The notes under the pieces are model-generated. The model was not told the origin of the DNA. It was given only the letters and a program-made list of their open reading frames with translations, and searched no databases. A DNA stretch of 30,067 nt, from positions 1 through 30,067 of the IMG/VR virus record IMGVR_UViG_3300021952_000029, one strand, 5' to 3'. This DNA is from a virus. Each line of letters opens with the position of its first letter. Position 1 is the stretch's first letter. Below are positions 1 through 7,781 of the stretch, in pieces. A program made the position numbers and the translations under genes.

Positions 1-61
1 GGGATCTGTGGATCGTGTGAAAACGTATATGAACATGATTAAGAATGGGGAATTGGAATGA
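1..61 (+). CDS. 3' end of an unknown gene, cut by window start
   Basis: An open frame runs from base 2 to the TGA at 59-61 and encodes the last 19 residues of a protein (ending DRVKTYMNMIKNGELE). Its stop overlaps the next start as ATGA, the same junction used repeatedly downstream, which supports it as a real coding end in the same operon. Too little remains to name a family. Confidence 0.5.
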   Translation, partial: GSVDRVKTYMNMIKNGELE

Positions 62-483
62 CCTTTCAAGTAATGTTTACGGTGGAGGGCACACCCATCG
101 GTAAGGGTAGACCCAAGTTCGCCAGGCGTGGCAACTTTGTCAGCACATACACACCAACAAAAACCCGTGACTACGAAACCTTGATAGCAGAAGCAGCTCG
201 TAAAGCAATGGGATCTTCTGAACCGCTAAAAACGCCTGTAGCGGCCTACATCTACATCACAGTACCAATCCCTTCCTCATACTCTAAAAAGCGCTCTACG
301 GCCTGTTTAGACGGCTTAGAGAGGCCATGCAAGAAGCCTGATTGCGACAATATAGTTAAGGCTTACTTTGACGCTATGAACAAAATTGTTTATGAAGACG
401 ATTCTCAGATTGTCAGCATCCATGCAACCAAAAGGTATGGGACTGTGGGCATGGTTGAGGTGTTGGTAAAAGAAGACATCTAA
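58..483 (+). CDS. rusA: RusA-family Holliday junction resolvase
   Basis: A 141-residue protein, close to the usual length of RusA (about 120 residues). RusA enzymes are dimeric, metal-dependent endonucleases that cut four-way DNA junctions; phages use them to resolve recombination and replication intermediates before packaging. Seen here: an N-terminal GTPIGKGRPKFARRG segment, then KPDCDNIVKAYFDAMN at about 93-108 and YEDDSQIV at about 112-119. The aspartates D95 and D97 and the acidic pair D114/D115 fall where the RusA catalytic aspartates lie (D70, D72 and D91 in the E. coli protein). The ATG overlaps the upstream stop, which supports this start. The family call is firm; in vivo activity is inferred. 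Confidence 0.93.
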   Translation: MTFQVMFTVEGTPIGKGRPKFARRGNFVSTYTPTKTRDYETLIAEAARKAMGSSEPLKTPVAAYIYITVPIPSSYSKKRSTACLDGLERPCKKPDCDNIVKAYFDAMNKIVYEDDSQIVSIHATKRYGTVGMVEVLVKEDI

Positions 484-2032: not shown

Positions 2033-2336
2033 CGCATTGACCTATGCGATCTTGCTTAGAGAACTACTGGATGGCGACAAGAACTGCCACCAATTAGCAG
2101 AAGCCACAGGACTGAACGTCCAGACAGTATATGACCACACAAAGGCTATGTACAAGGTAGGCGTAATCCATGTTCATGAATGGGAAACAGACACAAAAGG
2201 CCGTTGTGCCGTCCGTATATACATCCTTGGACCAGGTAAGGATGCTAAGAAGTTCACCAAGACTAGACAGCAAGTCAGTGCTGATTACCGCACACGAAAA
2301 AAACAAATCTTACTTAACCAGATGATGGCAGCATGA
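1995..2336 (+). CDS. winged-helix-like DNA-binding protein
   Basis: A 113-residue basic protein. Residues about 15-60 read as a winged helix-turn-helix: ALTYAILLRELLDGDKNCHQ forms the first helices, LAEATGLNVQTVYDHTKAMY the turn and recognition helix, then IHVHEWETDTKGRCAVRIYI the wing. The tail (KKFTKTRQQ...RTRKKQILLNQ) is strongly basic. The likely role is DNA binding, either transcription control of this phage or replication support. It lies beside a second, shorter protein of the same kind, and its stop overlaps that gene's start (ATGA). The assignment is from pattern, not a search. Confidence 0.7.
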   Translation: MSTKRIYGRTKINALTYAILLRELLDGDKNCHQLAEATGLNVQTVYDHTKAMYKVGVIHVHEWETDTKGRCAVRIYILGPGKDAKKFTKTRQQVSADYRTRKKQILLNQMMAA

Positions 2337-2563
2337 GACCAAGCAGACACAACGAAATCCGACAAGTATTGCTGTCCAATGAGGATGGCATGACTATTAA
2401 GCAGTTATGCAAGGTGTTTGGGTGTGCCCAATCATCGATGCTGACTAGCTTAAAACACATGTGGGGTGTGTACATAGATCGCTGGCAATATGCCAATGGG
2501 AGCTATGCCGCTGTCTACATGTCAATAAACACACCAGAAAACGCACCACATCCGAAGAGGTAA
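2333..2563 (+). CDS. second small helix-turn-helix protein
   Basis: A 76-residue basic protein whose middle part reads as a helix-turn-helix: EIRQVLLSNEDGMTIKQ, LCKVFGCAQSSMLTSLKHM, then a short beta wing (GVYIDRWQYANGSYAAVYMS). It has the same fold plan as its neighbour at 1995 but little direct identity, so the pair could be an old duplication or could act together. It ends just before the ribosome site of the next gene. DNA binding is inferred; the target is unknown. Confidence 0.65.
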   Translation: MRPSRHNEIRQVLLSNEDGMTIKQLCKVFGCAQSSMLTSLKHMWGVYIDRWQYANGSYAAVYMSINTPENAPHPKR

Positions 2564-2565
2564 TT

Positions 2566-2844
2566 ATGGAACTGGATGATCCATTTGAATATCAGAAACC
2601 TAAGTGGCTTGTTCTTGAAGAGCGAGAAAAAAGAAGGGCAGCAAGGGCTAGACGGCTTGGCAGACCCATTGGCACATGGGGCGGCAACAGAAAGGGTGCT
2701 GGAGAGCGTTTTAAGAAGCCATACGACAGCAAGGTATACATCAAGCACACCCGCATACAGCACAGCCTATTGCTTGACCTGGGCAATGGTGACCTGAATG
2801 CTGGTGTACAGAAATTAATAGACACAAAACTGGATGAACTATGA
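2566..2844 (+). CDS. basic phage protein with C-terminal helical motif
   Basis: A 92-residue protein. The start at 2566 is chosen because GAAGAGGT lies just upstream; an in-frame GTG at 2461 would extend it through the preceding HTH gene and is unlikely. The first half is very basic (EEREKRRAARARRLGRPIG), the middle carries GGNRKGAGERFKKPYDSK, and the end (TRIQHSLLLDLGNGDLNAG) resembles the short helical segment found at the end of many small phage DNA-associated proteins. It probably binds nucleic acid; function unknown. ATGA overlap with the next gene. Confidence 0.7.
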   Translation: MELDDPFEYQKPKWLVLEEREKRRAARARRLGRPIGTWGGNRKGAGERFKKPYDSKVYIKHTRIQHSLLLDLGNGDLNAGVQKLIDTKLDEL

Positions 2845-3227
2845 CTAAAACAGAAATGCTAGATCACTATGCGTTGTACGCAATGCAAGCGCAAATTGAA
2901 AAAATGGGCATTACAAACCCGTTTGCTATGGCTCAGACTTCATATCGGTTAGCGGTAGAAATGTTGGAGCACCGTGACCGCATCTTGCGAGAGTGGCAAA
3001 AAGAACAAGAGATGCAACACAAATATCAAAACTCTGACATTCAAGAACTTGATTTGCCAATCAGGTATCACCGATGCTTGGTTTCTGAGCAGATTCTTAT
3101 GAAGCAAGACCTTTGTAATTGGACTGAGCGAGAGATGCGAAGGATTCCCAACTTGGGGGTTAAGGGATTGCAGTTTGTCAAAGAGGCAATGGCTGTGCAT
3201 GGACTGAAATTTAGAGGTCAAGAATGA
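2841..3227 (+). CDS. protein with RNA polymerase alpha-CTD-like domain
   Basis: A 128-residue protein. Residues 1-65 are helical and polar, without a known family. Residues 66-124 read like the C-terminal domain of bacterial RpoA: LDLPIRYHRCL, a helix to about 90, TEREMRRIPNLGVKGL and a last helix to HGLKF. Aligned by eye with the E. coli alpha-CTD, R75 matches R265, C79 matches C269, G106 matches G296 and K108 matches K298, all part of the DNA-contact surface; N268, S299 and E302 are replaced (R78, G109, F112). The alpha-CTD binds upstream promoter DNA and activators. A phage copy without the assembly domain could bind DNA or host regulators. The fold match is good, the role is inference. 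A generic helix-hairpin-helix protein is the alternative. Confidence 0.7.
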   Translation: MTKTEMLDHYALYAMQAQIEKMGITNPFAMAQTSYRLAVEMLEHRDRILREWQKEQEMQHKYQNSDIQELDLPIRYHRCLVSEQILMKQDLCNWTEREMRRIPNLGVKGLQFVKEAMAVHGLKFRGQE

Positions 3228-3385
3228 TTGAGCAAAAGAAAGATGCACCAGGCAACCCACCATATTGGGTATGTACCAACTGCAAATGGGCTTTTGCGGC
3301 CTTGCAAGAGGCCAATCGCCATCAATGTGGGGGCCATATCTCAGTTAGTGCTTTTACCAGCTACACAAGGAAAGAAAATGTCTGA
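3224..3385 (+). CDS. 53-residue zinc-finger-like protein
   Basis: ATG at 3224, overlapping the upstream stop as ATGA, opens a 53-residue frame ending at the TGA at 3383-3385. It contains C17-T-N-C20 followed by H33-Q-C35 and H38, a spacing that could hold one zinc ion in a small finger. WVCTNCKWAF is typical of the first knuckle of such fingers. It overlaps the start of the next gene by eight bases. A longer frame from 3228 (TTG start) runs through the same DNA, but it lacks these motifs before its internal ATG at 3378, so I take this as the true gene here. Likely nucleic-acid or protein binding. Confidence 0.6.
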   Translation: MIEQKKDAPGNPPYWVCTNCKWAFAALQEANRHQCGGHISVSAFTSYTRKENV

Positions 3386-3704
3386 AATAGATCCAAACAA
3401 GGCTATCAACTACATCACCGCCAACTCCCAAGCCTTTGCCAAAGCCAAGGCAGACAGGACCTTTGTGGAGAACAACTTGAGGGTGGTGAAGTCTGAATTG
3501 ATGAACGATGAGGAAGGTACGCTAGGCCACAAAGAAGCCTATGCCTATGCTCACCCCAGCTACAAGCAACAATTGGTAGCCCTGAGGGATGCAACAGAGA
3601 TAGAAGAGAACCTACTGTGGATGATGAAGGCAGCATTGGCTCGTATAGAGGTGTATAAAGTACAGGAATACTCTAAACGTGCGGAATTAAGGAATTTGGG
3701 ATGA
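3378..3704 (+). CDS. helical phage protein of unknown function
   Basis: A 108-residue, mainly helical, charged protein (MSEIDPNKAINYITANSQAF at the start, later ATEIEENLLWMMKAALARIE). I start it at ATG 3378, with AAGGAAAG directly upstream, rather than at the in-frame TTG 3228. The pattern of two long amphipathic helices around a YAHPSYK loop recurs in phage recombination and replication operons, in my memory without known function. Its stop overlaps the next start (ATGA, 3701-3704). Confidence 0.75.
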   Translation: MSEIDPNKAINYITANSQAFAKAKADRTFVENNLRVVKSELMNDEEGTLGHKEAYAYAHPSYKQQLVALRDATEIEENLLWMMKAALARIEVYKVQEYSKRAELRNLG

Positions 3705-4543
3705 ACCCGTTTGAAATAATTGAGCCAACTTGCATCAGTTTTTCTGGTGGCAGGACAAGTGCTTACATGCTTTACAGGGTTCTTCAGGCTCACCAGATGA
3801 GCCTCCCTGAGGATTGTGTGGTCTGTTTCGCTAATACAGGTAAAGAAGACGAAGCCACCCTCAAATTTGTGAATGATTGTTCTGTGAATTGGAATGTGCC
3901 TATTGTGTGGCTTGAGTACACAGAAGCCGAAGAATCAAAAGACCGTTTCAAGGTCGTGACTTATGAGACAGCCAGCCGCAATGGTGAGCCATTTGAAGCA
4001 GTGATTCGTAAAAAAAGCTACCTGCCTAATCCTGTTACACGGTTTTGCACCATTGAGATGAAGATCAGGACGATTGCAAACTATTTGCTGTCGATTGGAA
4101 TGTGTGAAAAGCGAAGCCACGGGGAATATATGTCCTGGGTAGGCATTAGGGCAGATGAGCCTAGACGAGCCGCCAAGATACCTAGAGACAGGACTCCCTT
4201 GGTTGCTGCTGGCGTAACTAAGGAGATGGTTGGAGAGTTTTGGCGTAACCAATCTTTTGATCTTGAATTGCCCAACATCAATGGGGTGACTTACCATGGG
4301 AACTGTGACCTTTGCTTTTTAAAAGGTGCATCACAAACCATGAGTTTGATCACTGAAAAGCCTGAAAGAGCAGTTTGGTGGGCAAAGATGGAGGCATTGG
4401 CATTGGCATTGGCAAGCAAGCCAGACGGGGCTCGTTTCCGCAAAGACCGCCCAAGTTATGCCTCAATGATGCAATTCACTAAGGACCAGACTGACATGTT
4501 TGATCCGAATGAAGAAACTATTGCTTGTTTCTGTGGGGATTGA
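3701..4543 (+). CDS. PAPS-reductase-family (adenine nucleotide alpha-hydrolase) protein
   Basis: A 280-residue protein of the PP-loop superfamily. CISFSGGRTSAYML at 11-24 holds the SGGxxS nucleotide-binding loop, which binds the phosphates of an ATP-type substrate. GIRADEPRR at 148-156 is the second family signature. Cysteines C116, C202/C205 (CDLCFLKGA) and C276/C278 (CFCGD) could bind metal or an iron-sulphur cluster. True PAPS reductases reduce activated sulphate; phage relatives are often grouped with them by sequence, but their reaction is not known to me, and DNA or nucleotide modification is an open possibility. No partner modification gene is recognisable beside it. It lies directly before the HNH-like gene (start at the base after its stop). 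Confidence 0.85.
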   Translation: MNPFEIIEPTCISFSGGRTSAYMLYRVLQAHQMSLPEDCVVCFANTGKEDEATLKFVNDCSVNWNVPIVWLEYTEAEESKDRFKVVTYETASRNGEPFEAVIRKKSYLPNPVTRFCTIEMKIRTIANYLLSIGMCEKRSHGEYMSWVGIRADEPRRAAKIPRDRTPLVAAGVTKEMVGEFWRNQSFDLELPNINGVTYHGNCDLCFLKGASQTMSLITEKPERAVWWAKMEALALALASKPDGARFRKDRPSYASMMQFTKDQTDMFDPNEETIACFCGD

Positions 4544-4827: not shown

Positions 4828-5178
4828 ATGGGTGAATTCATTCTCACACTGCTACATGCAGCGACCAACACACACATTTTGCATTGGCAGACCAAAAGCT
4901 TTGCCAACCACATGGCATTGGGTGAGTTCTACGAAGCATTGCCAGACCTGATCGATGCCCTGGTAGAGGCCACACAAGGCGCTACAGGCCAGATTATCCA
5001 GTTCCCAGCAGACTACTACCCACCCGCAGAGAATGGCTTGCAAGAGCTAACAGAACTGCGTGAGTATTTCGTAGACAACCGCAACGTCATGCCGCCCGAC
5101 AGCGAGATCCAGAACCTGCTGGACAGCATTGGCGACCAGATCGATTCCACCCTTTACAAGCTACGCTTCCTCAGTTGA
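4828..5178 (+). CDS. Dps/ferritin-like helical protein
   Basis: A 116-residue all-helical protein with a strong ribosome site (AAAGGAG). The N-terminal half resembles a family of short phage proteins (DUF5856-like, from memory) and has features of Dps: H19-W20, then H28, D43 and E47. The spacing H28 to D43 to E47 (15 and 4) equals H63 to D78 to E82 of the E. coli Dps ferroxidase site. The place of D67 is G32, with E33 beside it, and the loop between HW and the second His is three residues shorter. At 116 residues against 167, it may be a reduced four-helix protein. Iron handling or DNA protection is inference; it may be a degenerate fold. Last gene before the terminator. Confidence 0.7.
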   Translation: MGEFILTLLHAATNTHILHWQTKSFANHMALGEFYEALPDLIDALVEATQGATGQIIQFPADYYPPAENGLQELTELREYFVDNRNVMPPDSEIQNLLDSIGDQIDSTLYKLRFLS

Positions 5179-7505: not shown

Positions 7506-7728
7506 TGGGCAGGGGGTAGGGCTGGAATGTAGGGTGAGGTTAGGGGGCCCGCTCCCCCATTCCCGAAATTTCTAGCAAAACTTTTTCCCCCACTACTAAT
7601 CCTGCAAAAAGAGACACACATAGGTATTACAAAAGATGCCTAAAACTGCTTGAAGTGCCAAAAAACACGGGTTTATACAAAGATTCCCTGTACAGAAATG
7701 TAGTACTTGCACTCCTGTATAAAATTTT

Positions 7729-7758
7729 TTGTCCCAAAAGTTTTTTGGTTGCTACAAT
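7729..7758 (+). promoter_or_regulatory. candidate promoter of the late operon
   Basis: TTGTCC (7729-7734) and TACAAT (7753-7758) are 18 bases apart and match the sigma-70 boxes at four and five of six positions. Transcription would start about 15 bases before the ATG at 7782. A second possible -10, TATAAA at 7718-7723 with TG directly before it, has no good -35. Sequence match only. Confidence 0.35.
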
Positions 7759-7781
7759 CTGGTCATTGCATGGAGGTTGCT

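Follow-up and report, generated by a model that had tools for sequence, protein, structure and literature searches.

A predicted composite phage protein joining an RNA polymerase alpha C-terminal domain to a small helical module

The locus and its genes

The window analyzed here is the whole 30,067-nucleotide stretch of IMG/VR virus record IMGVR_UViG_3300021952_000029. The gene of interest, at 2841-3227, lies in an operon that opens with a resolvase gene, and its position suggests that it is expressed early. The features that bear on the argument are these:

58..483, plus strand: RusA Holliday-junction resolvase gene (PF05866, 4.1e-34), opening the early operon that includes the alpha-CTD gene
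1995-2336 and 2333-2563, plus strand: two winged-helix/HTH ORFs, with weak matches (PF01022, 2.1e-4; PF02796, 0.004)
2566..2844, plus strand: upstream ORF of 92 aa, overlapping the start codon of the alpha-CTD gene (ATGA)
2841..3227, plus strand: gene of the alpha-CTD protein, an ORF of 128 aa with an ATG start, whose family is found in more than 50 IMG/VR loci
2856..2981, plus strand: residues 6-47, a two-helix phage module of the LRDYFAAKAM type (hhalign and PHROG matches, predicted helices)
3036..3212, plus strand: residues 66-124, the RpoA alpha-CTD domain (PF03118; PDB sequence and fold matches)
3224..3385, plus strand: downstream ORF of 53 aa, Zn-finger-like (CxxC...HQC), whose start overlaps the alpha-CTD stop
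7693..7758, plus strand: promoter-like block CAGAAATGTAGTACTYGCASTCCTGTATAAAWTTTTTT...TGGTTGYTASAAT, upstream of the GNAT/terminase operon (alignment of the window and three close relatives)

Homologues of the 92-aa ORF adjoin the gene in several relatives and occur also in a sister phage that lacks the alpha-CTD gene. Of 30 loci, 10 have a 53-aa Zn-finger-like ORF close to the alpha-CTD gene; the sequence of this ORF in the window suggests a zinc finger, for which Pfam zf-C2H2 reaches only 0.19. The RusA gene lies 1.5-4.2 kb upstream in other loci with the window's type of context. No homologue of either winged-helix ORF was found in 29 related loci or in the complete sister phage. The earlier note had grouped these two genes with the alpha-CTD gene as a possible transcription-control set, which we reject because the winged-helix genes are not conserved with the alpha-CTD gene. 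The usual partners in relatives are the small Zn-finger-like ORF, RusA, or a recombination pair made up of ERF or Sak and YqaJ. Also in the window are a PAPS reductase-like gene inside the early operon (3701-4543; phrog_424, 1.4e-49), which was found in just one other examined locus, L062, and an ORF at 4828-5178 that matches phrog_858 (starvation-inducible regulator, Dps-like) and is near the alpha-CTD gene in many relatives.

Domain architecture of the 2841-3227 protein

The C-terminal part of the protein is, on the evidence of sequence and predicted fold, a genuine RpoA alpha-CTD. Pfam RNA_pol_A_CTD (PF03118) matches residues 54-117 with E=2.8e-13 and a score of 49.8 bits, about twice the gathering cut-off of 23.8, and this match is not a chance one, since PF03118 is matched by all 26 of 26 diverse homologues (best E=2.2e-15). 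The top PDB sequence match is the B. subtilis alpha-CTD (3gfk_B, E=3.9e-9, residues 53-125), and about 30 PDB alpha-subunit sequences match below E=0.01. A generic helix-hairpin-helix family, which the earlier note had named as an assignment that would refute its proposal, is ruled out, given that HHH_5 matches only 5 of the 26 homologues (best E=0.0009). An AlphaFold2 model built from 26 sequences has a pLDDT of 90, with most CTD blocks at 92-95, and places helices at residues 3-22 and 27-63; because its pTM is 0.63, the relative placement of the two parts is unsure. Compared by Foldseek with the B. subtilis alpha-CTD 1z3e_B, the predicted model has an rmsd of 1.1 A over 61 columns and a TM(target) of 0.86, and the alpha-CTD arrangement is present in it. 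The RpoA N-terminal assembly domain, which dimerizes and binds beta/beta', was not found in the 128-aa protein: NCBIfam rpoA models match by their C-terminal parts alone, with scores far under their cut-offs. Both the alpha-CTD likeness and the missing assembly domain had been claimed earlier and are borne out here.

The DNA-contact positions proposed in the earlier note are exact, both for R75, C79, G106 and K108 at the places of R265, C269, G296 and K298 and for the changes N268->R, S299->G and E302->F. Among 26 aligned family members, over which conservation was computed, R75, C79, N104, G106 and G109 are invariant, K108 is K or R, the S299 position is always G, position 78 (N268) is R in 22 and N in four, and position 112 (E302) is variable. 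Dividing the domain into DNA, sigma4 and CRP faces according to what we take to be the determinants of the E. coli alpha-CTD, mean entropy is 0.43 bits for the DNA-contact (265) determinant versus 0.79 for the whole CTD, 1.0 for the sigma4-facing determinant and 0.87 for the CRP-facing one; the DNA-contact face is the most conserved surface of the family's alpha-CTD. The E261 position is N in 17 of the 26 members, the V287 position is R, K or H, and the R317 position is Q or E, so the family does not show the contact determinants for sigma4 (261) and CRP (287) in their E. coli form. These two determinants are not strict in all bacteria, and they bear on function rather than on domain membership. 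Judged by these residue patterns, the domain looks to have been kept for DNA and relaxed for the canonical partners in RNA polymerase (RNAP). The idea that the protein tethers host activators to phage promoters is weakened: conservation is lower at the sigma4- and CRP-facing residues than on the DNA face, and key residues among them have been replaced.

The N-terminal half had been described as unrelated and helical. It is helical and is not the assembly domain, but it does have relatives: over residues 6-47 it aligns with a small protein common in phages, 'GMTLRDYFAAKAMQ...AYxxADAMLKARE', at an hhalign probability of 96.5% and E=9.6e-10, and weakly with the ends of several PHROGs. This LRDYF module matches phrog_2201, phrog_37111 and phrog_20565, to the C-terminal part of which residues 6-47 correspond; those small proteins are homologous to it over this stretch but usually lack an alpha-CTD. 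The module is also carried in the C-terminal part of phrog_30599, named 'transcriptional regulator', and no Pfam family matches it. Two conserved helices, LRDYFAAKAM and AYxxADAMLKARE, flank a variable loop, a layout that the 2841-3227 protein shares. Many phages, cultured Pseudomonas and Enterobacter phages among them, encode the module on its own, and it is very common in the phage contigs searched (the L165-L404 set). A set of 54 distinct module proteins contains 15 versions of helix 1 versus 48 loops, the loop figure being indicative because the set was gathered by pattern. By sequence comparison, then, the 2841-3227 protein is a composite of a two-helix phage module (residues 1-63) and an alpha-CTD derived from bacterial RpoA (residues 66-124).

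In another group of proteins the alpha-CTD lies inside the loop of the module (L222:2043-2504, L326:864-1325 and L327:3001-3441; also L328-L329). L222 and L326 encode an identical protein from two metagenomes, and L327-L329 are at 46% identity. The loop-inserted domain matches PF03118 at 4.6e-22, and its DNA-contact residues are intact in L222, for which AlphaFold run on one sequence gave a pLDDT of 39. An empty form with an ordinary loop exists at L335:3001-3213, within the same DNA flanks (89% over 115 bp, 95% over 43 bp). The L222 type represents a separate fusion of these two parts, which have been joined at least twice.

Gene context and distribution

The family has homologues, mostly full-length and 54-92% identical, in more than 50 IMG/VR loci found in two scans. 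In 84,980 bacterial and archaeal genomes, neither the alpha-CTD family nor the terminase of this phage has a relative, and tblastn against INPHARED returned no true homologue, only RpoA-like matches in odd records, several of them annotated rpoA. The lack of homologues in both collections makes a virulent lifestyle possible for the phages that carry this family.

In 17 of 30 distinct loci an annealing-protein gene lies just upstream (ERF in 12, Sak in 5), and in 16 of these a YqaJ exonuclease gene lies just downstream; the 17th contig ends soon after. The alpha-CTD gene thus sits between the annealing-protein and YqaJ genes in 16 loci, often with ATGA overlaps, in some cases at both of its ends, and with an SSB gene next in line. 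The window contig has neither an annealing-protein gene nor a YqaJ gene. It belongs to the remaining 13 loci, where the gene lies in early-type operons of other kinds, with RusA frequently upstream and the 53-aa Zn-finger-like ORF directly after. The contexts alternate on the protein tree, where well-supported branches force at least five changes for each of the two larger groups. Downstream genes of either kind often start with ATGATTGA[AG]CA, a short shared junction that may ease gene swaps. Among the phage records searched, 17 of 20 contain an SSAP. The seven distinct alpha-CTD proteins of ERF/exonuclease loci all carry the LRDYF module, although five of them are the window's close family and L222 and L181 are the informative ones.

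As a control, 124 distinct ERF-YqaJ pairs were counted, with L236 moved out of the alpha-CTD group; it was dropped as an alpha-CTD protein, as only its helical module matches. The two genes are adjacent in 51 pairs and have other small genes or gaps between them in 66, which indicates that this slot accepts many genes. A recombination role argued from gene association alone, which we had accepted early, was cut back by this result.

Databases and one genome paper already list free phage alpha-CTD proteins, which makes this a known but uncharacterized kind. UniProt A0A6J5MNY7, annotated as RNA polymerase alpha C-terminal domain, belongs to the same family (57% identical over 128 aa). The phage proteins A0A2P1JY10 (Rhodococcus phage Finch), A0A5Q2WLP1 (Mycobacterium phage Mithril) and ORF40 of Erythrobacter phage vB_EliS-L02 (PMC9127768) carry the same annotation and are likewise free-standing alpha-CTD proteins, but they differ in length and partner region. 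Our literature search found no tested function for such annotated proteins and no functional paper on them, most matches being to work on the host alpha-CTD; nor did it find the union of LRDYF module and alpha-CTD or its repeated assembly. The 2841-3227 protein resembles the RpoA alpha-CTD in sequence, in fold and at the R265, C269, G296 and K298 positions, and differs in having no assembly domain, in N268->R and S299->G, in a variable E302 position and in altered 261 and 287 determinants. The case shows that a database label on phage genes of this kind, 'RNA polymerase alpha subunit' for example, can mislead.

Possible roles

We tentatively favor, at somewhat less than even chances, the hypothesis that the protein is an early, stand-alone alpha-CTD DNA binder that alters promoter use through UP-like DNA. 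Since the alpha assembly domain is missing, it cannot enter RNAP as a subunit. Its conserved contact residues suggest that it probably grips DNA as the host alpha-CTD does, in which case R75 would sit in the minor groove of A/T-rich (UP-like) sites and the helical module would dimerize the protein or link it to a partner. Occupied UP-like sites would then alter early transcription of the host, the phage or both, and the chief mode would be that of a competitor or altered substitute for the host alpha-CTD at UP elements. We prefer this reading mainly for two reasons: what was combined with the module on more than one occasion is the CTD of RpoA itself, and not a commoner helix-hairpin-helix domain, and other phage contigs (L098, L102, L125 and L126) encode fusions of sigma-70 region 4 with an alpha-CTD. 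Such fusions lead us to conclude that phages do use the alpha-CTD in proteins akin to those of promoter recognition, although the 2841-3227 protein itself lacks a sigma4 domain. The homology and fold of the domain and its best-conserved DNA face also count in favor, as do the presence of the module in phrog_30599, the 'transcriptional regulator', and the promoter-upstream block that close relatives share and that the sister phage without the gene mostly lacks. Against it count the weakened RNAP-facing determinants, the placement of the gene in a recombination operon in more than half of the loci, and the absence of the block from most phages that carry the gene.

The main rival is that the protein is a recombination accessory, in which the alpha-CTD, a relative of the helix-hairpin-helix, serves as a DNA-binding arm that aids the annealing protein, exonuclease or resolvase; in role, though not in sequence, it would be comparable to lambda Orf. 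This we consider rather unlikely. The ERF or Sak gene upstream, the YqaJ gene downstream and the SSB gene next speak for it, as does the occurrence of an SSAP in most searched records; two unrelated families of annealing proteins flank near-identical alpha-CTD proteins in contexts that alternate on the tree, window-type loci have RusA instead, and the DNA face is retained where the RNAP faces are not. The lambda Orf/NinB recombination mediators, which are encoded near rusA in lambdoid phages and work with an annealing protein (PMC4118853), offer an analogy of gene position only, as no sequence relation was found. The control detracts from this explanation: 51 pairs abut, and of the rest about two thirds hold assorted other small ORFs without an alpha-CTD. 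Moreover, the same protein occurs in phages without YqaJ, and other phage alpha-CTD families are rarely found with YqaJ in the record (2 of 34). The assortment of small genes in such slots, together with the dispensability of the gene for this phage type, would fit a decoy or counter-defense adaptor, in which a scaffold with a hypervariable loop displays the alpha-CTD and sequesters a factor, from the host or from a rival phage, whose target is the alpha-CTD. The many loops on few versions of helix 1 and the near-identical flanks around loops that hold an alpha-CTD and loops that do not agree with this, but a decoy would have no need of strictly conserved DNA-contact residues, and we regard it as very improbable.

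A further explanation centers on the 7693-7758 block, a possible candidate DNA target within the region 7680-7780 that the earlier note had picked out for DNA-binding checks. In the block an A/T-rich stretch immediately precedes a weak -35 and an extended -10. The protein, perhaps with its 53-aa Zn-finger-like neighbor, would bind there and recruit host RNAP to the terminase operon as a late-promoter activator. Among relatives with the gene, conservation of the block is high, and the complete circular sister phage MW202484.1 (terminase 82% identical) lacks both the alpha-CTD gene and the block's upstream half but retains CCTGTATAAATTTTTT. However, this comparison sets four phages against one, all of a single clade; the Zn-finger-like ORF and an HNH gene co-vary in the same way between the window's relatives and MW202484.1; phages with an 85-90% identical protein lack the block; and binding by an alpha-CTD would not need an upstream sequence as specific as the conserved one. 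Outside the window, the exact block core occurs in five other IMG/VR contigs only, and as a family-wide target the motif is rejected, being absent from most alpha-CTD phages even with three mismatches allowed. A tie between gene and block is thus possible but weak, and we hold late-promoter activation to be improbable. What MW202484.1 does show, by lacking the gene, is that phages of this type can do without it. No tRNA was found in the window; in MW202484.1 (L164), a tRNA-Asn-like sequence was noticed by eye near 41470-41580, just after the late promoter region.

Returning to altered promoter use, a broader form of it can be put forward, speculative and rather doubtful as a whole: the LRDYF module would be a general phage display scaffold, loaded with the alpha-CTD more than once to yield a soluble mimic of the polymerase tail that reprograms host promoters early. 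If true, such a mimic would take over host transcription in a way that has yet to be described. Many phage proteins bind or modify the host alpha-CTD, but that a free copy of the domain has been joined to a phage scaffold at least twice suggests that the copy is itself useful. The family offers a compact, testable case of the capture of a part of host RNAP, and the fusion provides a first structural clue to the common LRDYF module.

Some contigs hold further alpha-CTD proteins. In L066 two different proteins with module and alpha-CTD are almost adjacent (3405-3791 and 3949-4299), the second having the more canonical alpha-CTD (PF03118, 1.7e-18). L085 and L103 also appear by eye to encode fusions of sigma-70 region 4 with an alpha-CTD, an arrangement that places the -35-reading and UP-reading parts of RNAP in one chain. 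In L070 a second alpha-CTD protein (about 2495-2870, minus strand) has the domain N-terminal, followed by a 'WIGLTEEEF' tail that resembles the tail of the window's ORF at 1315-1800.
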